A DNA stretch of 64,000 nucleotides from Pedobacter cryophilus (GTDB taxonomy: Bacteria; Bacteroidota; Bacteroidia; Sphingobacteriales; Sphingobacteriaceae), in the NCBI RefSeq assembly GCF_005116455.1, contig NZ_SWBP01000001.1, positions 558,001 through 622,000 on the forward strand. Reading direction: 5' to 3'. Of the stretch, positions 15,496 to 40,892 are shown in pieces. The position numbers and the translations under genes are program-made. Under the pieces are notes generated by a model that saw only the letters and a list, made by a program, of their open reading frames with translations, did no database searches and was not told the origin of the DNA. The number at the start of each line of letters is the position of its first letter. Position 1 is the stretch's first letter.

Positions 15496-15614
15496 ACCCA
15501 AGTTAAATAAACTGGGGTGAAGCGGCATCTTTTTGCTCATTAGGCTTGTGCAGGGCGCAAAAAATATAGCGTAAAACCAGGCTATTGGAACTTTTGAAAT
15601 ACGGGTGTTGCTTT
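15496..15614 (+). repeat. Family II dispersed hairpin element, copy A
   Basis: Conserved left arm: CCCAAGT, AAATAAAC and GGGTGAAGCGGCA. The variable centre has stem TTTTTGC (15530-15536) and GCAAAAA (15557-15563). Conserved right arm: TATAGCGTAAAAC, GGAACTTTTGAAATACGGGT and TTGCTTT. It abuts the 3' end of the minus-strand methyltransferase gene. Copies B (32327-32449) and C (40789-40892) share the arms but not the stem sequence. Confidence 0.75.
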
Positions 15615-15615
15615 A

Positions 15616-16803
15616 CTAATCTTCTACCACTTCTACCGGTTTTTCACGCTTACTGCCATCATATAATTCATATTCTAGCAAACGGCAATCTAATTTTCCG
15701 TTATAAAATTCTATTCTTTTAGATGCTCTTAAGCCTATTTTTTTGGCCAAATCTGGGTTGCCTGTAAAAATATAGCCTTTATAGCCTTTACAACTTTGTT
15801 TCATAAAATCGCCAATGCGTTTGTATGTGGCTTCTAGTTTAGAATGAACGCCTAAACGCTCTCCATACTCTGGGTTAAACATAATTACTCCGCCACCTTC
15901 TGGAATTTGGGTATCGGCAAAGTCACAAACAACAAAATCAATTAAAGTATCTACGCCGGCTGTTCGGGCATTTCTTTCAGAAATATCAACCGCATCTTCA
16001 GAAATATCTGAAGCTATAATTTTGAAATCTATTTGCTTCACCACCTGATCTTTTAATGCTCTACGCTCGGCAAAGAAAACTTCTTCATCGTAACCTAAAA
16101 TATGCATAAAGCTATAGTTCATTCTAAACAAACCTGGTGCTCTTTTGGTGGCAATTAAAGCGGCTTCTATAGCCAAAGTTCCTGAACCACACATGGGGTT
16201 TACAAAATTTGATTTTTTGTCCCAACCGGTTGCATGAATGGTGCCTGAAGCTAATGCTTCTAACATAGGCGCTTTTCCCGGAATTTTACGGTAACTGTGT
16301 TTTGCTAAGGTTTCGCCAGAGGTGTCAATATAAATTTCGGCATTTTCATTTTTCCAATATAAATGAATTACAGCCTTGGTATAATCGGAGCCAGAATCAG
16401 GACGAATTTTGTGTTTTTCTTTAATTCTATCTACAATGGCATCTTTTACTCTAAGGTTTGCGAACAAAGGAGTGGTGATAGTAGGGTTATCCACATTAGA
16501 GGTTACAGAAAAATATCCACTAAAATCTATGAGACTTTCCCATTCTAATTTTACTAATTCTCGGTGTAATTCATCAGCGTTTTCTGCAGTAAATTCGTGT
16601 AAACGATAAAGAACCTGACTGGCGCATCTGAGGTTGAGATTCAGCCTGATACATTCATTTAAACTAAGGTTTAGTTCTACACCGGTAGAGAAAACTCTTA
16701 TCGGCTTAAAGCCTAATTCCATCACCTCTTGTTGAAGGTAAAGTGCTAGTCTTTTATTACAGGTGATGATCACCTTTGAGGGAGTGTTGAAAACTTGATT
16801 CAT
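15616..16803 (-). CDS. THUMP-domain class I SAM-dependent RNA methyltransferase (RlmL-type)
   Basis: This is a predicted 23S rRNA guanine-N2 methyltransferase of the RlmL N-domain/YpsC group. An N-terminal THUMP RNA-binding region (about residues 45-160) precedes a Rossmann methyltransferase. The motif NPMCGSGTLAIEAALIA binds S-adenosylmethionine and NPEYGERLG is the (N/D)PPY-like catalytic motif; here Glu replaces one Pro. I used ATG 16803, which gives MNQVFNTPSK. The longer frame from 16890 would overlap the divergent gene's coding start. The gene is divergent from the DUF3127 gene across a 63-bp region containing a perfect palindrome. A family II element follows its stop codon. Confidence 0.9.
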   Translation of the reverse strand: MNQVFNTPSKVIITCNKRLALYLQQEVMELGFKPIRVFSTGVELNLSLNECIRLNLNLRCASQVLYRLHEFTAENADELHRELVKLEWESLIDFSGYFSVTSNVDNPTITTPLFANLRVKDAIVDRIKEKHKIRPDSGSDYTKAVIHLYWKNENAEIYIDTSGETLAKHSYRKIPGKAPMLEALASGTIHATGWDKKSNFVNPMCGSGTLAIEAALIATKRAPGLFRMNYSFMHILGYDEEVFFAERRALKDQVVKQIDFKIIASDISEDAVDISERNARTAGVDTLIDFVVCDFADTQIPEGGGVIMFNPEYGERLGVHSKLEATYKRIGDFMKQSCKGYKGYIFTGNPDLAKKIGLRASKRIEFYNGKLDCRLLEYELYDGSKREKPVEVVED

Positions 16804-16838
16804 ATAGTTGCGCAATTTACTCAAATAAATTTTAGAGA

Positions 16839-16855
16839 TTTGAAACAGTTTCAAA
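16839..16855. promoter_or_regulatory. Perfect palindrome between divergent genes (candidate operator)
   Basis: TTTGAAAC A GTTTCAAA is an 8-1-8 perfect palindrome centred in the 63-bp gap between the RNA methyltransferase and DUF3127 genes. It overlaps where both promoters must lie, so it could bind a dimeric regulator. No regulator is identified. Confidence 0.4.
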
Positions 16856-16866
16856 ACGTTTTTAAT

Positions 16867-17241
16867 ATGGATATCAAAGGAAAAGTTCACGAAGTTTCAG
16901 AAGTCATTGAAGTGACCGAAAAATTTAGAAAAAGAGAGTTAGTGGTAGAATTTGCTGAGAATCCTCAGTATCCTGAATATGTAAAATTTGAAGCCATCCA
17001 AGACCGTTGTTCTTTGATGGATAATATAAAAGTTGGTAATGATGTAGAAGTTTTCTTTAACCTTAAAGGTCGTAAATGGACTGATAAAAACGGTAAAGAT
17101 CAATTTTTTAACACTTTACAACTTTGGAAGGTAAATGTGCTTAGCGCTTCAGAAGCAGCGGCTAGCAATTCAACTCCAGCCTATGCTGCTCCGGTAGATA
17201 TTAGCGCAGCACCTGGAGAAGATGATGATCTTCCATTTTAA
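16867..17241 (+). CDS. DUF3127 protein, OB-fold/SSB-like with acidic C-terminal tip
   Basis: This 124-residue protein starts at ATG 16867 (MDIKGKVHEVSEVIEV). An earlier in-frame ATG at 16795 would overlap the divergent gene. The N-terminal 90 residues match the DUF3127 pattern of a small beta-barrel (KRELVVEF...YPEYVKFEA...NDVEVFFNLKGRKW). A flexible Ala/Ser/Pro linker then ends in GEDDDLPF. That tip closely resembles the DDDIPF tail by which single-stranded DNA-binding protein recruits repair proteins. The protein may therefore be an auxiliary ssDNA-binding factor in DNA metabolism; this is inferred from the tail and fold. A strong terminator follows. Confidence 0.82.
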   Translation: MDIKGKVHEVSEVIEVTEKFRKRELVVEFAENPQYPEYVKFEAIQDRCSLMDNIKVGNDVEVFFNLKGRKWTDKNGKDQFFNTLQLWKVNVLSASEAAASNSTPAYAAPVDISAAPGEDDDLPF

Positions 17242-17268
17242 AGAGCCTATTTTCTAATTACAATGCGA

Positions 17269-17307
17269 TAAAAGCGGCTTCAACTTCCCAAGTTGGCCGC
17301 TTTTTTA
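17269..17307 (+). terminator. Terminator after the DUF3127 gene
   Basis: AAAAGCGG with an inner CAACTT/AAGTTG stem pairs with CCGCTTTTTT, giving a long interrupted hairpin followed by T residues. Confidence 0.8.
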
Positions 17308-17343
17308 TTTCTTATTTTTGTAGGATAAAATATCCCAGAAAAC

Positions 17344-17372
17344 AAAAAAAGGCATCAGTTTTCACCAATACC
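17344..17372 (-). terminator. Terminator after the type IX cargo gene
   Basis: On the minus strand GGTATTGG pairs with CTGATGCC (8 bp with three G-U pairs) before a run of seven T. It lies 24 bases beyond the stop codon. Confidence 0.5.
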
Positions 17373-17395
17373 TTTCCCAAATTTAAACCACAAAA

Positions 17396-18325
17396 CTAAT
17401 TTTTAATCACTTTTTTGAGGAAAGTTTTACTTCCCTGCTTCACCTGCAAATAATATATTCCGTTTTTAGCCCAAGGAAACTGCTTGTTATAGGTATCACC
17501 AGTAAGGGTTTTCTTTTCTGAAAAAATGGCGTTTCCTGACGAATCTAGTAATTTAACATCTAAAACACCTTTGACACTTGTGGTAAATGAAAGCGATGTT
17601 TTACCTGAAGAGAAATTTGGGTAAAAAACTAAATTATCCACTGATAAAGTGTTGATATCTACATTTTCACTTTTAAAAACCGCTTTAACATCTGATGGAG
17701 TAGGGTCTATTAATGAGATTTGGGTACGAGTGGTAAAGCCATCTTTATCTGTTGTTGAATAATTAAAATTGCTTGAATTTGGTTTAGTTACCGCTCTTTC
17801 AAAATTAAGATTTGAACCATTTCCTCTAAGCATTGGCATTGCAGGCATACCAGGAGCTCTTTTAGGATGCACCATTCCCCAATCTAAATCATCATTTAAA
17901 TGTTTACGAATAATAATTTCACGATCTTGAAAATCGTTTATTCCATTTGATAAACTATCATTTCTAAATTCTAACGTCATAGGTTGATGATCTCCTTTGA
18001 AAGTAAAAACCTTGGTTTTTACAGAGTCCATAGTTAAGGTCTCCACACCATCAACATTTCTAACAATCACTACTTTAGATTGATTTGAGTGAGGCCCAGA
18101 CATCTTCAGTCTTTTCGCTCCCGAATTCATCCCTTCAAACTTTTTTCTCAATTCAATTTTTTCGTTTTCGGGTATCTCTTTAAATTTTTTTCCGTTTACA
18201 ATGGTATCGCCATTATTTATAATAATTGAAGTTCTAATCTCTTCTGTGTTTTGAGCTTGAGCGGTTTGAAGAGCACCTGTAAGTGTTCCTAATAAGCAAT
18301 AACCAAAAAGTATTCGTTTTTTCAT
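17396..18325 (-). CDS. Secreted protein with C-terminal type IX secretion sorting domain
   Basis: The 309-residue protein starts at ATG 18325 (MKKRILFGY), giving a signal peptide ending near AQA. The longer frame from 18361 adds only 12 residues. The C-terminal 75 residues have the type A sorting-domain pattern: NLVFYPNFSSGKTSLSF, VKLLDSSGNAIF, and the NGIYYLQVKQGSKTFLKKVI end. Such domains direct export by the T9SS and cell-surface anchoring. The middle is charged, low in complexity and unrecognised. It is divergent from the histidine kinase gene at 18454, so the pair could be co-regulated. GldD elsewhere in the window is consistent with a gliding/T9SS lineage. Confidence 0.82.
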   Translation of the reverse strand: MKKRILFGYCLLGTLTGALQTAQAQNTEEIRTSIIINNGDTIVNGKKFKEIPENEKIELRKKFEGMNSGAKRLKMSGPHSNQSKVVIVRNVDGVETLTMDSVKTKVFTFKGDHQPMTLEFRNDSLSNGINDFQDREIIIRKHLNDDLDWGMVHPKRAPGMPAMPMLRGNGSNLNFERAVTKPNSSNFNYSTTDKDGFTTRTQISLIDPTPSDVKAVFKSENVDINTLSVDNLVFYPNFSSGKTSLSFTTSVKGVLDVKLLDSSGNAIFSEKKTLTGDTYNKQFPWAKNGIYYLQVKQGSKTFLKKVIKN

Positions 18326-18438
18326 GACCTTAAAATTTAGTTTATCAAAGGTAAACTTCATTGCCTCATCATTTTGTTAAAGCTCTGTTAATGAATGTTA
18401 AAAATTGTTAAACAAATTATCGCAAAATTGTACTTGAG

Positions 18439-18446
18439 TATATTTG
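18439..18446 (+). promoter_or_regulatory. Bacteroidota -7 box for the histidine kinase gene
   Basis: TATATTTG fits the TAnnTTTG consensus of Bacteroidota sigma factor promoters. Transcription would begin within a few bases of the ATG at 18454, giving a leaderless or nearly leaderless mRNA. No good -33 TTG lies at the usual spacing, which weakens the call. Confidence 0.35.
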
Positions 18447-18453
18447 CTTGGTA

Positions 18454-20556
18454 ATGAAAAGAAAAAGCATCAGTTTGATTATAGGTTTAATGAGTTTTGC
18501 TCTGCTTGGAGTAATGGCCATGCAATACTATTTCATCAAAGAATCTTACGGCTTAAAATCTCAACTTTTTGACCAAGCTGTAAATGATGCTTTAAATAAT
18601 GTAACCAATAAATTAGAGAAGAAAGAGGCTTTGGTTTTTTTAACCAATAAAGCAGAGCAAGAGATAGAAGAAAACAACAGGCTTTTAAAAATCCGACAGC
18701 TGGTAAAAAACAAAGTCCAAAAAATTGTTGAGCCGCTAATAGAAAACAATAATCCATTAAAAAGTCAACCAAAAAAATTATCATTTATAAATAATAGAAA
18801 GTCTCGTTTAGCAACGATGATGGGTAAAAATTCTACTAATGAGCCCATTATTTTGTTTGGAGAGCCTACTCATTTATATCATTTAGAAAGTAAATCTAAA
18901 TCACAATCATTTGATAAAGGCAATGCTGCCATTTTTGAAGCCACAAAAGCTAAATTTCAACGGGTAAATAAAGATTTTAATACTGATACCAACCTCAATT
19001 TTGTGAGGTTGATGAAAGCAAAGCAATTACAATCTGATAGTGTTTTTAAAATTAGAGACAGTATTTTAAGAACAAGATACCCTAGCAGATTAGTTTATAA
19101 CGGTCCTATTGAGGCTGAATTTGCGGCTCCCACCAATTTTGATTTGCGCATAGATGTAAATGAGGTGGTTGATGAATATGGAAATGTTTATAACGAAGTG
19201 CAACAATCTGTGGTAGAGCGTCCGGTAAAACCCACTCGTCAGCGGGTAATTAGAAGAGGTGTAGCCGTGGTAGATTCTATTAAACAATATGTTGTACAAG
19301 ATCCTATTCAAGGTTATGTATTAAGAACTCTCCCAAAAGCTAATTTTTTAACTGGCATATCTGATATTGAATTAGCCCTAGCCTCGCAAAAAAAAGAATC
19401 CGAAACACAAATTAAAAATGTAAATAAATATTTGGCTGCCGCCGAAAAAAAAGGATCAAAAAGTGCGGTTTTTGAGTCTATTGCGTCAGAAATGCAGCAA
19501 GTAAATATTCCACTTAGAAAACGTATTCAGCCCCAAACTATAGATTCATTATTGGATATTGAATTGGCCAATCATGGCATTCATTTAAATTACAGTTACA
19601 AAATCAGCAACAGCAAAGAAGATTCTGTTATTTTTATTAAAGCTTCTCAAAACGAAGAAGAATTTGTGCCCGAAAACACTTACAAAACTGTTCTTTTTAC
19701 TAAAGATATGGTAAGAGACGCTGGTTTTTTAACAGTGACTTTTCCCGAAAAAAACACCCTGATTTTGAAAAACATGGATGTAATTTTGTTTTCTTCAGCA
19801 GGTTTATTGCTGATTTTAGCCGGAAGTTTTGCTTACACTATTTCCTCTATTTTGCGTCAGAAGAAAGTTTCTGAAATGAAAACCGATTTCATTAATAACA
19901 TGACCCACGAGTTTAAAACTCCGGTAGCAACCATCATGATTGCCAGTGAAGCCTTAAAAGACCCTGTAATTAACGAAGATAAAGCCCGGGTAAATAAGTT
20001 GGCTGGTATTATTTATGATGAAAATATCCGACTAGGAAATCATATAGAAAGAGTCCTAAATATTGCTAAAATTGAGAAAGATGATTTAAAGTTAGAGCGT
20101 CACCCGCAAAACATGAATGAGTTAATTACCAACGTAATTGACAGCATGAATTTGCAATTACAAAAAAAGAATGCGCTGGTAAGCCTAAATTTAAATGCCA
20201 CCAAAACCACTATTATGGGCGATGAATTGCACCTTTCTAACGTAATTTATAATTTGGTAGATAACGCCAATAAATACTGTAAAGAGCAGCCAGAAATAGT
20301 TATCACTACAGAAAACCACCACAACCAACTCATTATAAAGGTAGAAGATAAGGGAATTGGGATGAACCGAGATCAACAAAAGAAAATATTTGAGCAATTT
20401 TATCGCATCCCTACCGGAAACTTACATGATGTAAAAGGTTTTGGTTTGGGCTTAAGCTATGTGAATAACATGATTAAAAGAATGAATGGCAGCATCAGCG
20501 TTAAAAGTGAAAAGGATAAAGGTTCAGAATTTGAAATTAAATTTCCGTTAACTTAG
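18454..20556 (+). CDS. RprX-like sensor histidine kinase
   Basis: This 700-residue inner-membrane kinase starts at ATG 18454; a TTG at 18448 is less likely. It has an N-terminal membrane helix (about residues 7-24), a large periplasmic domain, and a second helix near residues 445-465. HisKA follows with the phospho-acceptor His in NNMTHEFKTPVATIM, then a HATPase domain (N box NVIYNLVDNANKY, VEDKGIGM, GFGLGLSYV). Domain order and the partner regulator resemble the RprX/RprY pair of Bacteroides. The regulator gene starts 66 bases downstream, so they form one operon. The periplasmic domain is low in complexity and its signal is unknown. Confidence 0.9.
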   Translation: MKRKSISLIIGLMSFALLGVMAMQYYFIKESYGLKSQLFDQAVNDALNNVTNKLEKKEALVFLTNKAEQEIEENNRLLKIRQLVKNKVQKIVEPLIENNNPLKSQPKKLSFINNRKSRLATMMGKNSTNEPIILFGEPTHLYHLESKSKSQSFDKGNAAIFEATKAKFQRVNKDFNTDTNLNFVRLMKAKQLQSDSVFKIRDSILRTRYPSRLVYNGPIEAEFAAPTNFDLRIDVNEVVDEYGNVYNEVQQSVVERPVKPTRQRVIRRGVAVVDSIKQYVVQDPIQGYVLRTLPKANFLTGISDIELALASQKKESETQIKNVNKYLAAAEKKGSKSAVFESIASEMQQVNIPLRKRIQPQTIDSLLDIELANHGIHLNYSYKISNSKEDSVIFIKASQNEEEFVPENTYKTVLFTKDMVRDAGFLTVTFPEKNTLILKNMDVILFSSAGLLLILAGSFAYTISSILRQKKVSEMKTDFINNMTHEFKTPVATIMIASEALKDPVINEDKARVNKLAGIIYDENIRLGNHIERVLNIAKIEKDDLKLERHPQNMNELITNVIDSMNLQLQKKNALVSLNLNATKTTIMGDELHLSNVIYNLVDNANKYCKEQPEIVITTENHHNQLIIKVEDKGIGMNRDQQKKIFEQFYRIPTGNLHDVKGFGLGLSYVNNMIKRMNGSISVKSEKDKGSEFEIKFPLT

Positions 20557-20622
20557 CAGATAAGCAAAAGTTGATTCCCTAAACACTATAAAAAGCAGAA
20601 ACATCAGCTAAAACCAAAAAAC

Positions 20623-21321
20623 ATGAGTCGAAAAAAAATACTTTTAGTAGAAGATGATCCCAACTTAGGAATGCTTTTAGAAGATTATCTCGCTTTAAAA
20701 GGAAATTTTGAAGTAAAACTTTGCGTTGATGGCGAAGAAGGCCTAAAAGCATTTATGGCAGATACTTATGACATTTGTATTTTAGATGTGATGATGCCAA
20801 AAAAAGACGGTTTCACCCTAGCTCATGATATTAGAAAAGTGAATACCGCCATTCCTATAATTTTTGCTACAGCAAAAGGAATGATGGAAGACAAAACCGA
20901 AGCATATAGTTTAGGTGCCGATGATTATATTACCAAACCTTTTAGAATTGAAGAGCTTTTATTGCGTATTAATGCCTTGTTAAAAAGAGTAGCGCAGCAA
21001 GATATTGAGCCCGAAAATAAACCCACAAAGTTTGATATTGGCGGCTATCATTTTGATTTTCAAACCCAAATTATTACCAAAGAAAACGACCAACAAAAGG
21101 TAAGTACCAAAGAAGCAGAACTTTTAAGATTGCTGTGTTTAAAAATGAATGATGTACTTACCCGCGAAGAAGCTTTATTAGAGATTTGGCATGATGACAA
21201 CTATTTTAACGGCCGTAGCATGGACGTTTTTTTAAGTAAATTAAGAAAATACCTTCGAGACGACCCTAAAGTAGAAATTATTAATGTACATGGTAAAGGC
21301 TACAAGCTGTTGGTGAATTAA
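20623..21321 (+). CDS. RprY-like OmpR-family response regulator
   Basis: This 232-residue regulator has a receiver domain (residues 5-118) with the phospho-acceptor in ILDVMMPKKDGFTLA, and the conserved Lys in DDYITKPFRIEELL. A winged-helix DNA-binding domain follows (about 135-230, ending VEIINVHGKGYKLLV). It is close in pattern to Bacteroides RprY. Its partner is the kinase encoded directly upstream. Targets are not visible, but the divergent T9SS cargo gene and the following DUF4153 gene are candidates. Confidence 0.92.
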   Translation: MSRKKILLVEDDPNLGMLLEDYLALKGNFEVKLCVDGEEGLKAFMADTYDICILDVMMPKKDGFTLAHDIRKVNTAIPIIFATAKGMMEDKTEAYSLGADDYITKPFRIEELLLRINALLKRVAQQDIEPENKPTKFDIGGYHFDFQTQIITKENDQQKVSTKEAELLRLLCLKMNDVLTREEALLEIWHDDNYFNGRSMDVFLSKLRKYLRDDPKVEIINVHGKGYKLLVN

Positions 21322-21355
21322 TATCATTACTTTATATTTATGGAAATAAGCTGAT

Positions 21356-23194
21356 ATGAAATTTCCATCTTTAAGTCAATTATGGCTTTCTACCTCAAAA
21401 GTTTTCTTAAGATTTCCTATCCCTATTTTATTTGCAGCACTTGCCACCATTTGTGCTTACGTACTTTCTTACCAAACCAAAGATTTATCTCTTGAGCAAA
21501 ACCTCATTAAAGGCATTTATTTAGGGAATTTAGGTTTAGCTTTTTCTTTGGCTTTCACATTATTTTCAGAAGCCAGGGCTTTAAAAGGAATATCAAAATG
21601 GCTAGGAAATACTTTGGTATTTGCCATTATTATCCCCATATATCTTTGGTTAAACCCTTTTAATAAACAGGTTGATGTTGTTGTTTTATTAATCATTGTT
21701 TTTGCTTTTCATTTAATGGTGGCCATTTCTGCTTTTATTTCTAAAGAAGAAAATAATGGCTTTTGGCAAATGAATAAAACCTTTTTTATCCGTTTTGCTA
21801 CGTCGGCTTTATACAGTGCTGTATTATTTGCGGGTTTAAGTATTGCCTTATTAAGTATCCAAACTTTGTTTGATATTAAATGGGAAGGTGAAGTTTATTT
21901 AAGGCTTTGGATTATCATTGTAGGTCTGTTTAATACTTTATTTTTCCTATCGGGAATTACCCAGCCTTTAAAACAACTTAATGAGGAAAAATCCTACCCA
22001 AAAGGCTTAAAGGTGTTTACTCAATATGTACTTATCCCGCTTACCAGTATCTATTTATTAATATTATTAGTTTATGAAGCTAAAATTTTACTAGAATGGA
22101 GTTTGCCTGAAAGCTCTGTGGCAATTCTTATTTTAGGCTATGCCGTTTTTGGTATTTTATCTCTTTTATTGGTTCATCCCTTACAACATTTAGAAGAAAA
22201 CAAATGGATAAAATTGTACAGCAAAAGCTTCTATTTATTAATGCTTCCGCTGATTATTTTACTGGTTTTTTCTATCCAAAAAAGAGTGGCTGATTACGGC
22301 ATTACCGAAAGTCGTTATGTAATTATTGCTTTAACCGTTTGGCTTATATTTATCACACTTTATTTTTTGATCAAAGGAAGAGAACAAATCAGGATGATTC
22401 CGATCAGTCTTTGTATCATTTCCTTGATAATTATTGTTGGACCATGGGGAATAAAAGCTGTTTCTAAAAACTCTCAGCAAGAAAGATTAGCTGGTTTTCT
22501 AAATCAGAAATCCAGTCCAAAAAGAAATAACGAAGTAAGAGACATTACCCGATATTTATATCAACACCATGGTGTTTTGTCTTTACAATCTTTCATAAAA
22601 GATGATGTTTTAAGCGTGGAAAAGCATTTTGAAAATAAATATGCTAAAGAAGTTTACTCCGCCTATAAAATTAAAGGCGAAACTCAAGATTCTTTATTAA
22701 GACTTTTAAAAGTAAATCCCGAGTATGAAATTGCCGATGATAATGGCTTATTAATTTCTCAAGAAAGAAAATTTGACAATCAGGAAAAAGGAATTTTAGA
22801 TATAAATGGTGCTATAAAAATTGTAGAGTTCAATTCTAATATGAATATTCAGGACAAAAAAAGCACTCCTTTTTATGTAGACAAAGAGCAATTTACATTG
22901 ACTGTAGATTCTCTCAACAACTTAAATATAAGTGCTAAAAACGGAGAGAAAATTACTTTTAACAACAATAATATGCTTAAAAAATTACTCTCTCATAAAG
23001 AATTTAAAAGCCAAAAAACAGATATAGAAAGATTTGATGTCCCAAATTCTTTAATGTTAGTACAACAAAATTTTAAAGATTACACCTTTGTTTGCCGCTT
23101 TGAAAGAATAAATGGAGGTTATAAAACCAAAGCTAAAAAGGAGATGAGTAATATTTATTTTAATGGGTTTTTGATTATTTATCCAAAAAAATAA
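21356..23194 (+). CDS. DUF4153 multi-pass membrane protein
   Basis: The 612-residue protein has about ten membrane helices in its first 370 residues and a soluble C-terminal region of about 230 residues. The N-terminal pattern (two-helix repeats, SLAFTLFSEA, and YSAVLFAGLSIALLSIQTLF) matches DUF4153 proteins, a family of unknown function frequent in Bacteroidota. The C-terminal half includes YLYQHHGVLSLQSF, usual for the longer members. It follows the response regulator by 34 bases on the same strand and may belong to the same transcript. Confidence 0.8.
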   Translation: MKFPSLSQLWLSTSKVFLRFPIPILFAALATICAYVLSYQTKDLSLEQNLIKGIYLGNLGLAFSLAFTLFSEARALKGISKWLGNTLVFAIIIPIYLWLNPFNKQVDVVVLLIIVFAFHLMVAISAFISKEENNGFWQMNKTFFIRFATSALYSAVLFAGLSIALLSIQTLFDIKWEGEVYLRLWIIIVGLFNTLFFLSGITQPLKQLNEEKSYPKGLKVFTQYVLIPLTSIYLLILLVYEAKILLEWSLPESSVAILILGYAVFGILSLLLVHPLQHLEENKWIKLYSKSFYLLMLPLIILLVFSIQKRVADYGITESRYVIIALTVWLIFITLYFLIKGREQIRMIPISLCIISLIIIVGPWGIKAVSKNSQQERLAGFLNQKSSPKRNNEVRDITRYLYQHHGVLSLQSFIKDDVLSVEKHFENKYAKEVYSAYKIKGETQDSLLRLLKVNPEYEIADDNGLLISQERKFDNQEKGILDINGAIKIVEFNSNMNIQDKKSTPFYVDKEQFTLTVDSLNNLNISAKNGEKITFNNNNMLKKLLSHKEFKSQKTDIERFDVPNSLMLVQQNFKDYTFVCRFERINGGYKTKAKKEMSNIYFNGFLIIYPKK

Positions 23195-23225
23195 GGATGA
23201 AGATTTAATTTAACCTTCATCCTTA
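23192..23225. terminator. Hairpin between convergent genes
   Basis: TAAGGATGAAG and CTTCATCCTTA form a perfect 11-bp stem overlapping the DUF4153 stop codon. It lacks a T-run, but its place between convergent genes suggests a shared terminator. Confidence 0.45.
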
Positions 23226-23250
23226 CACCCTAAACCTAAAACCTCAAAAA

Positions 23251-26501: not shown

Positions 26502-26576
26502 ATTTTACTTACCAGATTACAAAAAAAATCAATTTCATAAAATTTTGATTTTTTTTTTTGATTTTTGCACCCAAAT

Positions 26577-27341: not shown

Positions 27342-27382
27342 TGAAAATAGGTAGGTAAAACTACCTGTGGGTTTAGATTGTG

Positions 27383-28826: not shown

Positions 28827-28842
28827 ATATCCATAACCATAA

Positions 28843-30797: not shown

Positions 30798-30801
30798 CTT
30801 T

Positions 30802-32028: not shown

Positions 32029-32038
32029 TTTATTTTTT

Positions 32039-32111
32039 GAAGCTATTCCTGCTATCCATTCATACTGCACAAGGCCTTATTCACCTAGCCGGTACCATTT
32101 CTATCAGGGCT
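32039..32111 (-). repeat. Family I dispersed repeat, copy 2
   Basis: Read on the minus strand it begins AGCCCTGATAGAAATGG, has TACCGGC, a centre with palindrome AAGGCCTT, and the right arm GCAGTATGAATGGATAGC followed by AGGAATAGCTTC. It matches copy 1 (2911-2984) closely in both arms while the centre differs. Confidence 0.75.
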
Positions 32112-32207
32112 AAAAAAGCAAATAAGAGTGTTGCTTGGTACAAAAAGGGCCACTCGCAGTTGAAGAAGAGCCAAAAAGTAAATTTATCATTTTGAAAATT
32201 AAACAGC

Positions 32208-32234
32208 GCAGGGTCCTCAAAAGAGAGACCCTGC
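32208..32234. terminator. Strong hairpin GCAGGGTCCTC/GAGAGACCCTGC
   Basis: GCAGGGTC (32208-32215) pairs with GACCCTGC (32227-32234), extended by CTC/GAG with a one-base bulge around an AAAA loop. There is no T-run, so a terminator role is uncertain. It could belong to a repeat element or a small RNA. Confidence 0.4.
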
Positions 32235-32326
32235 TTGGATAAAGATTTACTTGGAAAGAGAACCTAATTTTTTACAGCAACCGAATATTAGGTAAGCGTC
32301 TAATGTGTAACTAAAATGCACCGAAT

Positions 32327-32449
32327 GGAGTAAAATAAACGTGGGTGAAGCGGCACCCCACAGTAGTGATGGGCTTTGCGAATTGGGAAACTGTGGAGTA
32401 TAGCGTAAAACACGACTGGCGGAAATAATAAGCTGTGCGGTTGCTTTTC
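32327..32449 (+). repeat. Family II dispersed hairpin element, copy B
   Basis: Left arm AGTAAAATAAAC then GGGTGAAGCGGCA; stem CCACAGT (32358-32364) with ACTGTGG (32390-32396); right arm TATAGCGTAAAACACGACTG then GCGGAA and TTGCTTTTC. Compared with copy A, the 13-base arms flanking the stem are nearly identical while the stem is unrelated in sequence. Confidence 0.78.
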
Positions 32450-32526
32450 CAAATTATTTTATCTTTATTAAAAAGATTTTATGCCGGCTGAATACTTGAA
32501 TGGGCTTTAATTATTATATTTAAAGA

Positions 32527-34326: not shown

Positions 34327-35627
34327 TGTTTAAAAAAATGAATATAAAGTTTAGAATATTAGCCCTCGCTTTTATTGGGCTAACAGTGGTTACTGCTTGT
34401 TCAGAAAAAGTAAGTAACGGTTTAGTTGCCGCCACCAACTTAAAGAAAATTGGGGTTGATGAAAAAAATCTGGATAGGGTGGATAGCTTAATTGCCACCG
34501 GATTAGTAAACAATTGGATGGCTGGCGCAACAGCATTAATTGCTGTTGATGGGAAAGTAATTTATGATAAAGGTTTTGGATTTAGAGACCGCGAAACTAA
34601 AGCTTTAATGCGCCCTATAGACCAGTTTAGAATTGCTTCTATGACCAAGCCTATAGTTACCGCTGCAGCAATGATTTTAGTTGAACAAGGCAAATTAAAA
34701 CTAACCGACCCTGTTTCTAAATACATTCCTGAGTTTAAAAATATGAAAGTATTGGCTTCTTTTAATGCAAAAGACACTACTTACACTACTGTTGACGCTA
34801 AAGAACCCATCACTATTAAAAACTTAATGACGCATACCTCTGGTGTGGGTTATGGATTTATTGATCCTAGATTGGCTTTAATTTTTGCTAAAAATGGCGT
34901 TCCAGATTTAGCTTCGTCTGATAAAATTACCATTGCTGATAAAATGAAAACTTTAGGAAAACTGCCTTTAGGCTTACAACCTAATGCCGCATTCTATTAT
35001 GGTTTAAATACTGATGTTTTAGGCTATGTGATTGAAATTGCAAGTGGTAAAAACTTAGACGAATATGTAACCGAAACCATTTTAAAGCCTTTAGGAATGG
35101 AAAACACATTCTTTTTTATTCCAACGGAAAAAGCAAATAGATTATCTGTAATGTATGGCGAAACTAAAGATGGCAGGTTAGAAAGATTGCCTTTAGTTAC
35201 CAAAGGCTACAATGTGAATTTCCCAATTACAGGTGCAAAAACTTATTTCTCCGGCGGATCAGGATTGTCATCTACCGTAGAAGATTATGCTAAATTTTGC
35301 CAAATGATTTTAAATGAAGGCTCTTTTGGAGGAAAACAAATTTTAAGCTACGAAACCGTAAAACAAATGACCACCAACCAAATTGGAAACCTAAACGTAG
35401 GTAAAAACAAATTTGGTTTAGGTTTTGAAATTGCCACCAAAGAAGGATTAGCAAATGGAGCCAAAATTGGTAAATTAAGTTGGGGCGGCGCTTTTAATAC
35501 TACTTTTTGGATTGACCCAAGTAGAGGATCAATTGCCATATTAATGACTCAGGTTTACCCCGCTGTTCATAAAAAAGAATTATTCAGTCAGTTTGAAAAA
35601 TTGGTGAATGAGGCTTTGGATAGATAG
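34326..35627 (+). CDS. Serine hydrolase lipoprotein (class C beta-lactamase/esterase fold)
   Basis: The 433-residue protein is a lipoprotein (lipobox VVTAC near residue 25). The class C-type active site is RIASMTKPIV (Ser-x-x-Lys), with YYGLNTDVLGY at the Tyr-x-Asn position and the LMTHTSGVGYG motif. The usual KTG is replaced by WGGAFNT, as in EstB-type esterases, so peptidase or esterase activity is more likely than beta-lactamase. It is translationally coupled to the AsmA-like gene (TAATG) and ends before a strong terminator. Confidence 0.88.
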   Translation: MFKKMNIKFRILALAFIGLTVVTACSEKVSNGLVAATNLKKIGVDEKNLDRVDSLIATGLVNNWMAGATALIAVDGKVIYDKGFGFRDRETKALMRPIDQFRIASMTKPIVTAAAMILVEQGKLKLTDPVSKYIPEFKNMKVLASFNAKDTTYTTVDAKEPITIKNLMTHTSGVGYGFIDPRLALIFAKNGVPDLASSDKITIADKMKTLGKLPLGLQPNAAFYYGLNTDVLGYVIEIASGKNLDEYVTETILKPLGMENTFFFIPTEKANRLSVMYGETKDGRLERLPLVTKGYNVNFPITGAKTYFSGGSGLSSTVEDYAKFCQMILNEGSFGGKQILSYETVKQMTTNQIGNLNVGKNKFGLGFEIATKEGLANGAKIGKLSWGGAFNTTFWIDPSRGSIAILMTQVYPAVHKKELFSQFEKLVNEALDR

Positions 35628-35681
35628 GTTTGGGATGAAAGAGGAAAGAGCAAGTAATAAAGACATTTCAATATCAACCAA

Positions 35682-35712
35682 AAAGAGCCAAGACGTAACA
35701 TCTTGGCTCTTT
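35682..35712. terminator. Bidirectional terminator between convergent genes
   Basis: AAAGAGCCAAGA (35682-35693) and TCTTGGCTCTTT (35701-35712) form a perfect 12-bp stem with T-rich flanks in both directions. It serves the serine hydrolase and ilvE genes. Confidence 0.85.
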
Positions 35713-35736
35713 GTTCTTTAATCCTTTATCTAAAAT

Positions 35737-36801
35737 CTAAACTACAAAATTCCAGCCTTTTACATCTTCTACTCGGCCGTATTTAATATCATCTAAAGCT
35801 TTTCTCATTTTTACAGCAAATACGCTTTCAGATGGATTTGGCAAAGTATAAGTTTTCCCTTCATGTACAATCTCTGCAACTTGGGCAATGGTCGCGGCTG
35901 TTCCAGCACCAAAAGCATCTGTACAGGCTCCATTTGCAATGGCTTCTAAAACCTCTTTAACAGAAACCCTACGCTCTTCCACTTCCATTCCAAAATCTTT
36001 AGCTAATTGGATAATGCTTTCCCTAGTTACTCCATTTAAAATGGTATCTCTGGTAGATGGAGTAACTAATTTGCCATCAATTACAAACATCACGTTTGCC
36101 GCACCCATTTCTTCTACATATTCATGGGTTTTAGCATCTGTCCAAATTAATTGGTCGAAACCCTGTTCCATCGCTTTCTTTGCAGGCAGCATAGAACCAC
36201 CGTAATTTCCGGCTGCTTTAGCAAAACCAAAACCACCTTCACTAGCTCTGGTATATTCAGTTTCTATTTTCACCTTCAAGTTTTTAGAAAAATACGGACC
36301 AGTTGGACCTAATAAAACCATAAACTTATAAGTACTTGATGGCGCAACACCCAAATATGGGTCGGTTGCAAACATAAACGGTCTAATGTAAAGCGTATAG
36401 TTTTCTTTGGTTGGCACCCAATTTCTATCCATATCAACAATTGCCGCTATACTTTGAATAAAAAATTCTTCTGGCAATGCGGGCATACACAATCTCTCTG
36501 CAGATTTATTGAAACGAGCAGCGTTTTTCTCTGGCCTAAAAACAGAAATCTTTCCATCAGCATGTTTGTAAGCCTTTAAGCCTTCAAAAAAAGCCTGGCC
36601 GTAATGTAAAGCAGAAATAGCTGGACTCAAACCAATATCGCCGAAAGGCAAAATTTCAAAATTTTTCCACTCGCCATCTGCATAATCAGCAGTTAACATG
36701 TGGTCAGAAAATGTTTTACCAAACGGTAGATTATCAAAATCTACCCCTGCTAATTTAGAACTTGTTGCCTTTGTTACTTTGATATTTAATGTCTCGGTCA
36801 T
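35737..36801 (-). CDS. ilvE: Branched-chain amino-acid aminotransferase
   Basis: IlvE transfers amino groups in the last step of leucine, isoleucine and valine synthesis, with PLP. The 354-residue length fits the long (eukaryote-like) form common in Bacteroidota. Motifs: LHYGQAFFEGLKAYKHADG, YIRPFMFATDPYLGV, GNYGGSMLPAKKAMEQGFDQ with the PLP lysine nearby, and DTILNGVTRESIIQLAKDFG. I used ATG 36801 (MTETLNIKVTKA) rather than the in-frame 36831. The dioxygenase gene on the same strand ends 55 bases upstream of that start codon. Confidence 0.93.
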   Translation of the reverse strand: MTETLNIKVTKATSSKLAGVDFDNLPFGKTFSDHMLTADYADGEWKNFEILPFGDIGLSPAISALHYGQAFFEGLKAYKHADGKISVFRPEKNAARFNKSAERLCMPALPEEFFIQSIAAIVDMDRNWVPTKENYTLYIRPFMFATDPYLGVAPSSTYKFMVLLGPTGPYFSKNLKVKIETEYTRASEGGFGFAKAAGNYGGSMLPAKKAMEQGFDQLIWTDAKTHEYVEEMGAANVMFVIDGKLVTPSTRDTILNGVTRESIIQLAKDFGMEVEERRVSVKEVLEAIANGACTDAFGAGTAATIAQVAEIVHEGKTYTLPNPSESVFAVKMRKALDDIKYGRVEDVKGWNFVV

Positions 36802-36855
36802 GTGATTGGTCTCCTTTTTCAAGTCTCGCAATTTAGCAAATTGTTTATTGATTTC

Positions 36856-37812
36856 TTATTTAGAACTATGTAATACTTCGTTTACCCACGTTTTTCCCCA
36901 TTCTTCTGTTTCTAATTCAGACCATAAAGCCGGGTAAAATATCCGCTTTTGAAAACGCGGAGGCAAATATTTTTGCCAATTGGTTCCTCCGGTTGCTTTA
37001 ATCTCTTCTGGTTCTCGGTTTAAATACCGCACTGCCGATTTATAATGCACCAAAGGCCAGTTCACATTTACCAAAACATCAAACCTTCTCAATAAATTCT
37101 CTGCTTCTGTTAAATCAATTTCTTTTGCTATAAGCTGCAAATAACATTGCCACAAATTGCTTTGCTTTACCTTGTTTGCTAATGAAATAAATCCTTCGGC
37201 ATACTTCTTTTCAAACTGTTTTAAAGTCAATGTTTGCTTTCCAGTAGAAAGTTCTGTCGCACCAAATTTCCAATAAATTTGCTCAAATTGCTTTTCCACC
37301 AATTCATTTCTCAAAACCTCTCTTTGGTCTTTAGCCACCAGATTAATAAAATCTGTCGCATAAATTTCAATCATTCTATACTGCCCACTCTGAAAACCAC
37401 TCGCCGGTAATAAAGACATCCTGAACTGCAAAAACTGCTCTTTTTCCATCCCTTCCACCATAATTCCGAAAGACTGAGTTAAGGCTTCGAAGTAATTAAT
37501 CATCCGCTTTAAGCGAGTGCAAAAAAAAGATGCATCCAAATTTTGATGCTCTGCCAACTGTTCGCACTCATGCAAAACCAATTTAAAGTACAACTCGGTA
37601 ATTTGATGGTACATTATAAAAATTTCCTCATCAGGGAAAGGCGTTTTGGGTGTTTGCAAGCTCAACAAAGTATCTAAATGGATATAATCCCAATAGGTCA
37701 AATAATCAGCGTAAAGCAACCCATCTAAATAAGACGACATATCTTGCCCCATTGCCTCATATTTCTGCTGCAATTTCTCTAATCTATCCTTAATTTCTGG
37801 AGTGATTTCCAT
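36856..37812 (-). CDS. kynA: Tryptophan 2,3-dioxygenase family protein
   Basis: This heme dioxygenase family opens the indole ring of tryptophan at the start of the kynurenine pathway. The 318-residue protein keeps the TDO core: YLTYWDYIHLDTLLSLQTPK, IFIMYHQITELYFKLVLHEC (substrate pocket), and VHYKSAVRYLNREPEEIKATGG with the candidate heme-ligand His and the TGG motif. No other kynurenine genes are nearby, so the substrate is not confirmed by context. The flanking gap carries a family I repeat. Confidence 0.87.
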   Translation of the reverse strand: MEITPEIKDRLEKLQQKYEAMGQDMSSYLDGLLYADYLTYWDYIHLDTLLSLQTPKTPFPDEEIFIMYHQITELYFKLVLHECEQLAEHQNLDASFFCTRLKRMINYFEALTQSFGIMVEGMEKEQFLQFRMSLLPASGFQSGQYRMIEIYATDFINLVAKDQREVLRNELVEKQFEQIYWKFGATELSTGKQTLTLKQFEKKYAEGFISLANKVKQSNLWQCYLQLIAKEIDLTEAENLLRRFDVLVNVNWPLVHYKSAVRYLNREPEEIKATGGTNWQKYLPPRFQKRIFYPALWSELETEEWGKTWVNEVLHSSK

Positions 37813-38181
37813 TTTTTGAGATCCTTTAATAATTCATCCAATGCACCAAATTTTTCATTTAGGCACATCAAAATAACATATAAAATTAGGCATTATAAAA
37901 GATAAAATAAGGAGGGCGCATGCTGAAAAAGCACTAGGCTATTTGTTCATACTGCACCGGGCATTAGCCACAACCCAATGCTCAAAAAACCCAACGCTTT
38001 GCCGGTATCCACGCCTATCCCTTACGCAAAAACCTATATGATGGCAAAAGAAAAAAATAGATATATTTGAAGCATCAAGCAAAGGGTAATGGTGTTCTAC
38101 CCATTTGAACCGACCAAAATATTTCATTTTGGTATGATGACGCCTACCGATAAAATATATTTTTAATTTTTATTTGTAGGA
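37813..38181. other. Gene-free gap with family I repeat copy 3
   Basis: About 370 bases between divergent genes. A minus-strand frame of 62 codons overlaps the repeat and is not supported. Apart from the repeat at 37937-38030, only AT-rich promoter-like DNA is visible. Confidence 0.4.
37937..38030 (-). repeat. Family I dispersed repeat, copy 3 (diverged)
   Basis: On the minus strand: GCGTAAGGGATAGGCGTGGA, then TACCGGC, a longer variable centre with stems ACCGG/CCGGT and GCATT/AATGC, and GGTGCAGTATGAACAAATAG. The right arm matches copies 1 and 2 at GCAGTATGAA and diverges afterwards. Confidence 0.6.
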
Positions 38182-39555
38182 ATGTTCGAAAAAACCATCA
38201 AATCAGCTCATTTTTTAATCATCAGGTATTTCTTTAAGTGGTTTTTTTTAACCTTTCCGGTAGCCATTACAATTGGCAGTATGGTAGCCTTTTTTCTTTG
38301 GTTACTTAACGCAGCTATATTTTATCGCTTTGCGCAACCTTGGTTACTTTATCTTTTACCATTGGTTGGGGTAGCTATTCATTTTTTATATAAATTATTG
38401 GGTAAATCATCTGAAAAAGGGAATAACCTCATCATAGATGAAATTCACGAACCAGGCGCTGGCATTCCAGCCCGAATGGGTCCTTTAGTATTATTAACAA
38501 CGGTATTGACCCATCTTTTTGGCGGTTCGGCAGGCCGAGAGGGTACAGCCGTTCAAATTGGAGGTAGCATAGCCCAACTTTTTGCAAAATGGTTTAAACT
38601 GAATGAAAAAGAAGTAAAAACCTTATTAATGGCCGGAGTAGCAGCAGGTTTTGGAGCTGTTTTTGGAACTCCTCTAACCGGAGCTATATTTGCTATTGAA
38701 GTTATTGCCTTGGGTAAATTACAATACAATGCCATTATTCCTTGTTTAATTGCCAGTATCATCAGTGATTTTACGGTTAACATTTGGGGCATTCAACACA
38801 CCGTTTACCATCTAGATTTTGTGCAAAGCAAAGATTTTTTCTTATCCGCTTATTTACATTGGGATGTCTTATTGATGGCTAAAATTATTGGCGCTTCAGT
38901 TGCTTTTGGTTTAGCCAGTTATTTATTTGCAACCTTAGTACATAATGTTAAAAATATAGGCTTAAGCATTTTTAAAACTACTTGGTTAATTCCATTAACA
39001 GGTGGAATCATTATCATATTGCTTTACTGGCTGGTAGGCAAACCAGATTACTTGAGTTTAGGTGTTAACGCCGAATATCCTACAGCGGTAACCATTTTAT
39101 CTGCCTTTAACCAAGGTGGTGCCGATGCCATGAGTTGGCTTTGGAAAACTATTTTTACCGCCGTTACCTTAGGCACAGGCTTTAAAGGCGGCGAAGTTAC
39201 TCCGCTATTTTACATTGGGGCAACCTTAGGAAACAGCTTAGCCACTTTATTAAATGCACCAGTAAGTTTATTTGCTGCATTGGGTTTTATTGCTGTTTTT
39301 GCTGGCGCCACCAATACGCCTTTGGCCTGCACCATTATGGGTGTTGAATTGTTTGGCGGCGAATATATTTTGTTTTTTGCCATCGCTTGTTTTACCGCTT
39401 ACTTTTTTAGCGGACATTCTGGTATTTACAGTTCGCAACGTATTGCTATTCCTAAATTATTTGAAACCGATTTTTCTGAAGGTGATACTTTGAAAGAAGT
39501 GCAGGAAAGAAGGAGGGGTTATTTTGGGAAGAAGTTGGGGAAGTATAGGGTTTAG
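38182..39555 (+). CDS. CLC family antiporter, probably fluoride/proton (CLC-F) type
   Basis: This 457-residue CLC membrane protein has about ten or more helices. The gating glutamate motif reads GSAGREGTAVQ (residues 116-125), with Thr where chloride CLCs have GREGP. The later pore motif is GTGFKGGEVTPLFYIGATLG instead of GxFxP. The first motif is EPGAGIPARMGP. As I recall, GREGT and GEVTPLF are marks of the CLC-F branch, which expels fluoride in exchange for protons. Automatic annotation would say voltage-gated chloride channel. No fluoride riboswitch was recognised in the upstream gap. The gene appears monocistronic. Confidence 0.82.
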   Translation: MFEKTIKSAHFLIIRYFFKWFFLTFPVAITIGSMVAFFLWLLNAAIFYRFAQPWLLYLLPLVGVAIHFLYKLLGKSSEKGNNLIIDEIHEPGAGIPARMGPLVLLTTVLTHLFGGSAGREGTAVQIGGSIAQLFAKWFKLNEKEVKTLLMAGVAAGFGAVFGTPLTGAIFAIEVIALGKLQYNAIIPCLIASIISDFTVNIWGIQHTVYHLDFVQSKDFFLSAYLHWDVLLMAKIIGASVAFGLASYLFATLVHNVKNIGLSIFKTTWLIPLTGGIIIILLYWLVGKPDYLSLGVNAEYPTAVTILSAFNQGGADAMSWLWKTIFTAVTLGTGFKGGEVTPLFYIGATLGNSLATLLNAPVSLFAALGFIAVFAGATNTPLACTIMGVELFGGEYILFFAIACFTAYFFSGHSGIYSSQRIAIPKLFETDFSEGDTLKEVQERRRGYFGKKLGKYRV

Positions 39556-39666
39556 CTTCTTATCATCCTGAATTCATTTCAACACCTATTTAAATTCTAT
39601 AGTCTTCAACTTTCATCCAATTTGGCAAGAAAGTTGACACCTTGTTGTTTTATAAAACAATTTATC

Positions 39667-40383
39667 ATGCAAAATTTAGTTAATAAAGTAGCGCTCATTA
39701 CTGGCGCAAGCAAAGGAATAGGATACGGTATTGCAGAGGCATTAGTAAAACAAGGAATAAAAGTAGCTATTACCAGTCGCTCTCAAGAAAGTGCAGATGA
39801 AGCCGCTAAAAAATTAAGCAGTTTAGATGGCGAAGTTTTAGCCATTGCTGCTGATGTAAAAGATTATGAATCTCAACAAAAAGCAGTAGAACAAATTATT
39901 GCCAAATGGGGACAAATAGATTTCTTGATTGCCAATGCTGGCGTTGGGCATTTTGCACCTATTGATGAAATAGACATTAAAGACTGGAATGATACCATAG
40001 ACACCAATTTAACCGGTGTGTTTTACAGCGTAAAAGCGGCTATACCGGCATTAAAAAATTCGGAAGGTTATATTATTACCATTTCTAGTTTGGCAGGAAC
40101 CAATTTCTTTCCAGAAGCTTCAGCTTACAATGCCAGTAAATTTGGTTTAACAGGTTTTTCACAAGCTATTATGCTAGATTTAAGAAAGTATGGCATTAAA
40201 GTAACTACCATTATGCCGGGTTCTGTAGCCACTCATTTTAACGAACACGAACCAGATCAAAATGCAGATGCTTGGAAAATTCAACCCGAAGATATTGGAC
40301 AAATGGTTTCTGATTTACTACACATGAACCCAAGAGTTTTACCAAGTAAAATTGAAGTAAGGCCTACTAAGACCTCTAATTAA
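39667..40383 (+). CDS. Short-chain dehydrogenase/reductase
   Basis: The 238-residue protein starts at ATG 39667 (MQNLVNKVALITGASKG), which places the NAD(P) motif TGASKGIG at its usual position. The longer frame from 39622 is not needed. NAG motif: LIANAGVGHF. Catalytic residues are the Ser in TISSLAGTNF and the Tyr/Lys in SAYNASKFGLTGF. It resembles FabG-like or sepiapterin-reductase-like SDRs; the substrate is unknown. It converges with the higA remnant, and their stop codons overlap in TTAA. Confidence 0.9.
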   Translation: MQNLVNKVALITGASKGIGYGIAEALVKQGIKVAITSRSQESADEAAKKLSSLDGEVLAIAADVKDYESQQKAVEQIIAKWGQIDFLIANAGVGHFAPIDEIDIKDWNDTIDTNLTGVFYSVKAAIPALKNSEGYIITISSLAGTNFFPEASAYNASKFGLTGFSQAIMLDLRKYGIKVTTIMPGSVATHFNEHEPDQNADAWKIQPEDIGQMVSDLLHMNPRVLPSKIEVRPTKTSN

Positions 40384-40760
40384 CTGGTTTTTAATTGATA
40401 CTCTTTTAAAAGATATTCAGCCGGAATTTTTAAAAGCTGGCTGAACTTTCTAATCATGCTCAGAGAAAGCGATTGTTTGTAGTTTAAAACTTTACTCACT
40501 GTTCCTTTATCTCCATAAACCTGAGCTAAATCAGCAGATTTGTAGCCAAAGTCTTCCATTCTAATTTTGATCATCTCTATGGGATCAACATCTGGCAAAA
40601 TAGTGGTCCTCTCTTCGTAATTCGAAATCAAATGAACAAGCAAAAGTTTCTCTTTATGCTCTTGAGTTCCTTTTAGCGCAGATTTAATGGCTTCATATCT
40701 GGCAATTGCTTCCAAATATTCTTGCTATGTTTCTATTATAAACCAATTTGACTTTTTCAT
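40380..40760 (-). pseudogene. higA: HigA-type antitoxin with an in-frame TAG, no toxin partner
   Basis: From ATG 40760 the frame reads MKKSNWFIIET, then TAG (40725-40727), then QEYLEAIARYEAIKSA and on to 40380 without a shift. HigA proteins begin with a TExxY pattern, so the stop probably replaces a Glu codon (GAG to TAG). The C-terminal two thirds keep the family: DVDPIEMIKIRMEDFGYKSA, the helix-turn-helix GDKGTVSKVLNYKQSLS, and KIPAEYLL. A 111-residue product could still start at TTG 40715. No HigB toxin gene lies upstream; that space holds a family II element. It looks like a decayed toxin-antitoxin remnant. Confidence 0.72.
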
Positions 40761-40788
40761 TTTTTATGGTTTAAAGTTAATTGCAAAA

Positions 40789-40892
40789 ACCCAAGTAAAA
40801 TAAACCGGATTGGCAGCGGTATGCCACTTTTTCTGTGGCATTTAGCAGAAAGCCGGACTAGCGGAAGCTATGAAATACAGGTATTGCTTTTC
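40789..40892 (+). repeat. Family II dispersed hairpin element, copy C
   Basis: Left arm CCCAAGTAAAATAAACCGG then AGCGG; stem ATGCCAC (40821-40827) with GTGGCAT (40835-40841); right arm TAGCAGAAAGCCGGACTAG, GCGGAAGCTATGAAATACAG, TTGCTTTTC. It shares outer arms with copies A and B and again has a 7-bp stem of unrelated sequence. Confidence 0.78.

Follow-up and report, generated by a model that had tools for sequence, protein, structure and literature searches.

Three intergenic elements of Pedobacter cryophilus are members of a dispersed, structurally conserved repeat family that is probably a REP-like DNA element with a Flavo-1 core

The window analysed here is a stretch of 64,000 nucleotides from Pedobacter cryophilus (assembly GCF_005116455.1, contig NZ_SWBP01000001.1, positions 558,001 to 622,000 of the forward strand); coordinates are those of the window unless stated otherwise. 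It contains, on the plus strand, three related intergenic elements, which we call W1, W2 and W3. They belong to a large repeat family with a conserved structure, part of which is known as the Rfam family Flavo-1 (RF01705). A first-pass annotation made from the letters of the window had described three copies with common arms and exactly paired 7-bp stems, and this description is accurate.

The elements were delimited with R1, a covariance model built from 22 copies that have the same arms (W1-W3 and 19 relatives from the same genome, hereafter type A). W1 lies at 15486-15619, the full extent of the model, W2 at 32314-32452 and W3 at 40779-40895; as training sequences they score 114.7, 96.7 and 105.7 bits, respectively. 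Each contains two stems, which were assigned from the sequence and the 22-copy alignment. The inner stem, P3, pairs TTTTTGC (15530-15536) with GCAAAAA (15557-15563) in W1, CCACAGT (32358-32364) with ACTGTGG (32390-32396) in W2, and ATGCCAC (40821-40827) with GTGGCAT (40835-40841) in W3. The outer stem, P2, pairs CTGG (15512-15515) with CCAG (15577-15580) in W1, CGTG (32340-32343) with CACG (32411-32414) in W2, and CCGG (40805-40808) with CCGG (40853-40856) in W3. The conserved blocks vary among the three: W1 carries TTGGAA and TTGCTTTAC, W2 is without GAAATACGGGT, and W3 carries GGATTGGCAGCGGTA and TTTAGCAGAAAGC.

The right end of W1 overlaps the stop of a minus-strand RlmL-like methyltransferase gene, whose open reading frame (ORF) ends at 15616, and 20 nt separate W3 from the end (40916) of a minus-strand HAD/2-hydroxyacid dehydrogenase/ACT gene. 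The right end of W2, unlike these two, faces a gene start. W2 forms an inverted pair with a minus-strand Flavo-1 copy at 32041-32115 that has canonical arms (RF01705, 36.3 bits, below the cut-off) and lies 12 nt past an FtsX/MacB-like permease gene. Another canonical copy is present on the plus strand at 2907-2982 (contig positions 560907-560982; 38.2 bits, also below the cut-off). When the window is scanned at Rfam gathering scores, the sole report is a fluoride riboswitch (RF01734, 38076-38153, plus strand, 45 bits).

The anatomy of type A was read from an alignment of the 22 copies by MAFFT, with no structure imposed. The left half consists of the left arm (..GCAnnnn.CCnAAGTAAAATAAAC), the 4-bp stem P2, a conserved GGGTGAAGCGGCA or GATTGAAGTGGAA, and the variable P3 with its loop; the right half consists of a conserved TATAGCGTAAAA or TTGTAACAAAAA, the second strand of P2, and the right arm GACTRGCGGAA...TTGCTTTTC. 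The single variable stem of the first-pass annotation is therefore P3, whereas P2, a second covarying stem directly inside the arms, and the paired positions within the conserved blocks themselves had been overlooked. Its statement that the stems share no sequence holds for W1-W3, but a T-rich P3 like that of W1 is frequent among the 22 copies. Column pair 28-108 is C-G in 12 copies, T-A in 5 and G-C in 5; pair 29-107 is G-C in 13, T-A in 5 and C-G in 4; and pair 44-93 is T-A in 12, A-T in 5, G-C in 3 and C-G in 2. Over 11 column pairs, this alignment contains 212 Watson-Crick cells, 0 G-U, 0 A-C, 29 G.A and 1 T.C. The G.A cells are confined to two places: 22 represent a G.A or A.G mismatch at columns 31/105, which is present in every copy, and 7 are at 32-104.

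Further copies in the genome, on which the first-pass annotation had staked its idea of a family, are retrieved by plain BLAST, by RF01705 and by R1; the covariance-model search that it had proposed, performed here with the 22 copies including the three, gives 94 matches in the same genome at E<=0.001 and matches in 16 of the 18 genomes of the genus. RF01705 gives 119 matches in the same genome at E<=10, 86 of which exceed the cut-off of 42. Since sub-cut-off matches at E<=10 also occur in 10 of 14 control genomes, compared with none at E<=1e-4, only the stronger matches were counted. At E<=1e-4, RF01705 matches per genome number between 1 and 113 across the genus and 102 in P. cryophilus (for both models, at most the best 150 candidates per genome were scored). 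Across the phylum, matches at E<=1e-6 occur in 22 of the 198 genomes with a completeness of 90% or more; in this survey the best 22 candidates per genome were scored, and copy counts saturate at that number.

The link between these elements and Flavo-1 was found by permissive Rfam scans, in which relatives score up to 42.8 bits. RF01705 recognises the core of W1 with 30.2 bits and that of W3 with 31.0 bits, the latter at E=1.1e-4 when 501 bases are searched; for W2, a search of its locus up to E=10 gives no match. Five copies in the same genome that have type-A arms (L028, L029, L034, L038 and L044) exceed the cut-off with scores of 57.8-71.7 bits, and blocks and pairs are common to above-cut-off Flavo-1 copies and W1-W3 in the one unfitted alignment of 22 copies. 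The copies in the genome fall into several arm types: besides type A there are type B (GCGTTAACG...CGTGTTAAAACGCCC) and a canonical form. A pattern search across the genome contigs found at least 111 stretches of type B, and a strict type-A pattern had 0 matches. Only 5 of 99 analysed RF01705 matches fall inside a mechanically called ORF. One type-B copy had no match in phages or plasmids, and one type-A copy had none in plasmids. In some copies other repeats are nested: a TCATCCTGAGCGGAGTCGAAGGATGA hairpin lies inside the P3 loop of several (L004, L039, L043, L045 and others), and some type-B copies carry CCTGCCTGCGGCAGGCAGG or CCCGATTTTTCATCGGG hairpins in their right arm.

The pairing statistics bear on the question of which nucleic acid forms the structure. 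If it is RNA, there should be G-U pairs and one-sided changes, and few A-C mismatches. Since an A-C mismatch is a G-U pair on the opposite strand, pairing at the DNA level should treat the two alike. For a larger type-A set, we used 74 copies (73 distinct) aligned by R1, an alignment that is fitted to the structure and hence biased towards it. In this set, 92.1% of cells pair, compared with 67.2% after shuffling and 29.9-49.7% when partners are slid by 1-3 columns; covariation thus exceeds chance, which had been set beforehand as the test. Two-sided changes number 278 and one-sided changes 5, while the slid versions give 45-64 two-sided changes. The cells comprise 993 Watson-Crick, 6 G-U, 32 A-C, 53 other and 26 gapped, and 24 of the 32 A-C cells come from a single column with a frequently bulged C. 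As a control, 7 distinct tRNAs from the same loci give 129 Watson-Crick, 15 G-U and 0 A-C cells, two of the seven being almost identical to each other. The share of G-U among Watson-Crick and G-U cells is 0.6% in type A and 10% in the tRNAs (Fisher p=5e-10); note that copies are kindred, so that cells are not independent events, that short helices tolerate G-U less, and that a control of seven tRNAs is small. One count of type-A P3 (72 Watson-Crick in 69 rows) was discarded for its poor pattern. The pairing of type A is nearly strand-neutral, which argues against a one-strand RNA.

The type-B alignment comprises 48 of the 50 copies whose match does not exceed 86 nt (L103 and L116 were dropped, and longer copies were left out). 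The seven column pairs of the type-B core, with 330 Watson-Crick, 3 G-U and 1 A-C cells, covary as well; for example, pair 25-77 is T-A in 25 copies, G-C in 12 and A-T in 9, and pair 30-72 is C-G in 33, T-A in 14 and T-G in 1. The outer-stem columns 13-17/89-93 are misaligned around inserted hairpins and were kept out of the core count; all 13 pairs, including the outer stem and the mismatch column, give 510 Watson-Crick, 22 G-U, 4 A-C, 86 other and 2 gapped cells. Together with the two-sided changes and the unfitted counts of type A, the type-B core lends strong support to the selection on structure that had been proposed from three copies. The preponderance of two-sided changes could also be produced by hairpin-templated correction (quasi-palindrome repair), in which one arm is copied to the other and the element spreads by any means. 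However, such correction should erase the G.A/A.G mismatch at columns 31/105 and the internal loops, which persist (the former in 22 of 22 copies), and changes of every kind are scarce between orthologous copies, so that we regard this explanation as quite improbable.

The arrangement of copies was examined in a merged set of 145 elements, formed from 65 of the 94 R1 matches and 100 of the 119 RF01705 matches (E<=10) in the genome. Within 500 nt there are 7 neighbour pairs, compared with 2.6 expected at random; 6 are head-to-head, including W2 with the Flavo-1 copy beside it, 1 is tandem and 0 are tail-to-tail. A distance limit of 5 kb gives 25 pairs, close to the 24 expected; 13 are head-to-head, 10 tail-to-tail and 2 tandem, a deficit of tandem pairs with p=2e-5 if half are expected to be tandem regardless of gene order. 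In Pedobacter nototheniae, one locus (L381) contains 8 RF01705 matches (E from 1.1e-7 to 3.4e-5, 6 of the 8 above the cut-off) that alternate strictly between the strands at regular spacing. In Pedobacter yonginense, a 232-bp unit is repeated in tandem (L370), with 5 reported RF01705 copies, all on one strand; between them a second core can be read by eye on the opposite strand, where RF01705 has no match. RF01705 does report such a second core at one other place in the P. yonginense genome (L430, 2401-2466), scoring it at 35.9 bits, short of the cut-off. A 211-bp query spanning both cores matches 4 separate places of that genome over at least 187 positions, two of these places being arrays.

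Because G-U pairs are scarce in type A and not in excess over A-C, because copies form inverted pairs and an alternating array, and because RF01705 counts swing so widely within the genus, we consider W1-W3, with a probability of about 0.6, to be copies of a dispersed, structure-recognised DNA element that resembles repetitive extragenic palindromic (REP) sequences and bacterial interspersed mosaic elements (BIMEs) and whose core is Rfam's Flavo-1. The first-pass annotation had left the choice between a non-coding RNA family and a small non-autonomous mobile element; the evidence tends towards REP-like DNA, with no target-duplicated empty site found. The unit is a long interrupted hairpin, with outer arms of several types, a 4-bp stem of free sequence, conserved mismatch pockets (for example, a G.A pair that can be swapped to A.G) and a variable terminal stem. 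When one strand is exposed, for example as the lagging-strand template, the unit would fold, and an enzyme that processes single-stranded DNA, most likely of the HUH/Y1 class, might then read the shape of the hairpin and its pockets rather than the letters of the stems. Such an enzyme would spread copies, preferably as inverted pairs beside gene ends, and alternating arrays might grow from these.

Several observations, given in this and the following two paragraphs, weigh against the DNA-element reading. When folded alone as DNA, W1 and W2 are no stabler than shuffled sequences, and only W3 is stabler, on both strands (z of -2.7 and -2.6). REP and BIME units are 20-40 bp long, compared with 117-139 nt for the model matches of W1-W3, and the GTAG or CGTC foot of REPs is missing from the conserved columns. 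In addition, type-B terminal stems contain 256 Watson-Crick, 9 G-U and 0 A-C cells (48 copies), which hints at a strand preference, though the RNA model that found this set favours G-U. This last count would suit a conventional one-strand small RNA, which is how Flavo-1 is listed: Rfam files it as 'Gene; sRNA', a table of Weinberg 2010 gives it as probably RNA and not cis-regulatory (PMC2864571), and a review of sRNAs places it among abundant bacterial small RNAs without known role (PMC9029176). The passages on Flavo-1 returned by a full-text literature search nowhere call it a DNA repeat, and none of the titles listed by further searches links it to repeats. We nevertheless find a one-strand RNA very doubtful in view of the small G-U share of type A relative to tRNA and of the 102 matches in this genome compared with 1 in another species of the genus. 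Moreover, in a Flavobacterium psychrophilum transcriptome study, Flavo-1 matches have no fixed orientation, being sense or antisense to transcripts, and many lie outside transcribed regions.

Conservation in place was studied by aligning eight orthologous type-A sites across four close species (G001, G003, G004 and G007). All 8 examined sites of G001, which has 18 matches, are also present in G007, and the elements of these two differ at 61 of 1100 positions, compared with 537 of 2577 fourfold sites, which were taken from mechanical ORFs, some possibly antisense. The elements thus differ about 4-fold less than fourfold sites, and therefore copies seem to be constrained once settled. Such constraint would also be explained by RNA made from both strands, that is, a hairpin between gene ends that is read from either side and acts as a bidirectional terminator, an RNase barrier or a stabiliser of 3' untranslated regions; selection on both RNAs would forbid G-U and A-C equally. 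The position of type A agrees with this: among 20 copies found by RF01705 with both neighbours called (as mechanical ORFs), the 3' end of the right neighbour faces the element in 16 (median 41 nt, p=0.012), and the outer arms of many type-A copies yield, on each strand, a TTTT run close to the end. In type B, however, the orientation is weaker (41 of 67, p=0.09). Terminator scans of W1, W2 and W3 give 0, 1 and 1 sites against shuffle means of 0.4, 0.6 and 0.2, and the two sites found are inside the elements, on opposite strands. The many F. psychrophilum matches outside transcribed regions also speak against RNA from both strands, which moreover leaves alternating arrays and copy number swings unexplained, and we consider it unlikely, though it is the strongest of the rival readings.

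REP and BIME repeats are mobilised by REP-associated tyrosine transposases (RAYTs, TnpA-REP), which were examined here as candidate partners. RAYT-family matches (PF01797/NF047646) are present in 18 of 18 genomes of the genus, above the curated cut-off in 13. However, no mobilising gene is linked to the elements: there is one RAYT-like ORF in the 620 kb around 80 named copies, and among element loci of the genus such ORFs occur at two (L178 and L210). RAYT number and copy number are weakly correlated (rho 0.45, p=0.06; for type A 0.17, p=0.49). Conversely, R1 matched 6 of 33 RAYT loci at E<=5 and 5 of them at E<0.01 (L024 and L251 denote one place, as do L025 and L229). The three strongest of these near-matches, in G001, G007 and G004, represent one ancestral site after a leuB-like gene (L228, L230 and L241), and the five RAYT loci that were inspected (L024, L025, L026, L228 and L233) bear other repeats, and therefore the near-matches were rejected as evidence of linkage. 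As for movement itself, neither a clean empty site nor a target duplication was found among the orthologous sites compared. The partner may be an unlinked RAYT (group 5/subclass 2.6), a lost enzyme or an enzyme of another class.

The repeats beside the RAYT genes deserve a separate description. At L026 (1040-2000), GTAG-footed REP repeats lie on both sides of a RAYT-like gene of 176 aa, which at 51 bits misses the NF047646 cut-off, and a GTAGGGATAACCCGAGGGTTATCC repeat also occurs in the window near 1150. The 184-aa RAYTs of L024 and L025 are adjoined by another repeat (GTTTAAGTGTTCC..GGATCACTTAAAT, by eye), similar repeats being present in the window at about 2690-2830.

Two kinds of orthologous site were considered as possible records of movement. 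One group, g7, was rejected as an empty site, since by eye it holds an apparent decayed copy; such copies are seen in G004 (L306) and G003 (L307) where G001 and G007 keep the element intact, and it looks as if copies can lose constraint. One presence/absence site, in G003 (L269), has the element together with a NUDIX-like gene. It could be a fresh insertion of gene and element, but the same NUDIX-like gene adjoins an inverted element pair in P. cryophilus (L004), so that loss in G001, G004 and G007 is an equally good account. At the site of W2, 13 of 17 relatives have the orthologous downstream gene; the loci of 11 relatives have no Rfam match up to E=1, and the one R1 match among them (L128, 16.5 bits, E=2.7) does not exceed chance. 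When 33 of the 113 matches of genome G006 were compared with 109 P. cryophilus loci, 2 of the 33 had both flanks in common with element loci of P. cryophilus, and, as a raw count, about ten more had one neighbour in common. Some gene families recur beside copies, in loci of unequal size and with an anchor pattern that missed many elements.

In the eight orthologous groups, the right flank is alignable throughout save for short gaps, and the gene content of the left flank differs in three (g3, g6 and g8), where the differing genes are an antitoxin-like gene with a 99-aa ORF, an Exo_endo_phos gene and a RAYT. Eight groups are too few to make left-flank turnover a rule. At L273 (420-1935), L260 (2240-2947) and L262 (1117-1956), accessory genes next to the left end of an otherwise conserved element vary from one close species to another; they comprise an XRE-like regulator, an Unstab_antitox-like gene with the 99-aa ORF, an Exo_endo_phos gene and a lipoprotein-like ORF (some labels by eye). 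A more far-reaching reading, which we think rather unlikely, is that Flavo-1, rather than an RNA, represents a new class of mobile single-stranded DNA hairpin read by shape alone, that inverted pairs spread as units, and that accessory genes, such as the antitoxin-like one, turn over at left ends. The enzyme would then need the pockets and any Watson-Crick stem, and therefore the stem letters would drift while pairing stays perfect. If the family is a DNA repeat, as we favour, Flavo-1 would have to be re-filed from the RNA families, and the Bacteroidota would gain a REP-like system with shape-only recognition. Counting G-U against A-C on covarying pairs, together with inverted pairing, could be applied to other 'orphan' RNA motifs in order to separate DNA hairpins from RNAs.

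Among known systems, miniature inverted-repeat transposable elements (MITEs) and the ends of IS200-IS605 insertion sequences are, like the present family, short, non-coding, hairpin-forming and present in many copies; the family differs in that neither a duplicated target, nor a clean empty site, nor a transposase partner was found. An integron attC-like site was considered on account of the variable terminal stem and rejected, since by eye the R-box consensus does not fit the arms. The likeness to REPs and BIMEs is closer. Both are intergenic imperfect hairpins in high copy number, with inverted dimers, few tandem dimers and dimers reiterated in arrays; for REPs, one paper states that they are mostly inverted dimers, that tandem dimers are absent or under-represented, and that dimers are reiterated in arrays (PMC3733652). 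The differences, besides length and foot, are that the stem letters of the W1-W3 family are free and that no RAYT is linked; a passage of another paper says that Bacteroidetes RAYTs of subclass 2.6 have 'atypical' REPs (PMC6006769). From Flavo-1 itself, type A differs in that its long outer arms fall outside the 76-position model, in that W1 and W3 stay short of the gathering score (42) and W2 gives no match up to E=10, and in that its pairing pattern argues against a one-strand RNA. Nevertheless, W1 and W3 match across the whole model, and the family has in common with Flavo-1 a homologous core and structure, consisting of the paired blocks GAUUGAAGCGG.../...UGUAGCGGAAAGC and a variable terminal stem.

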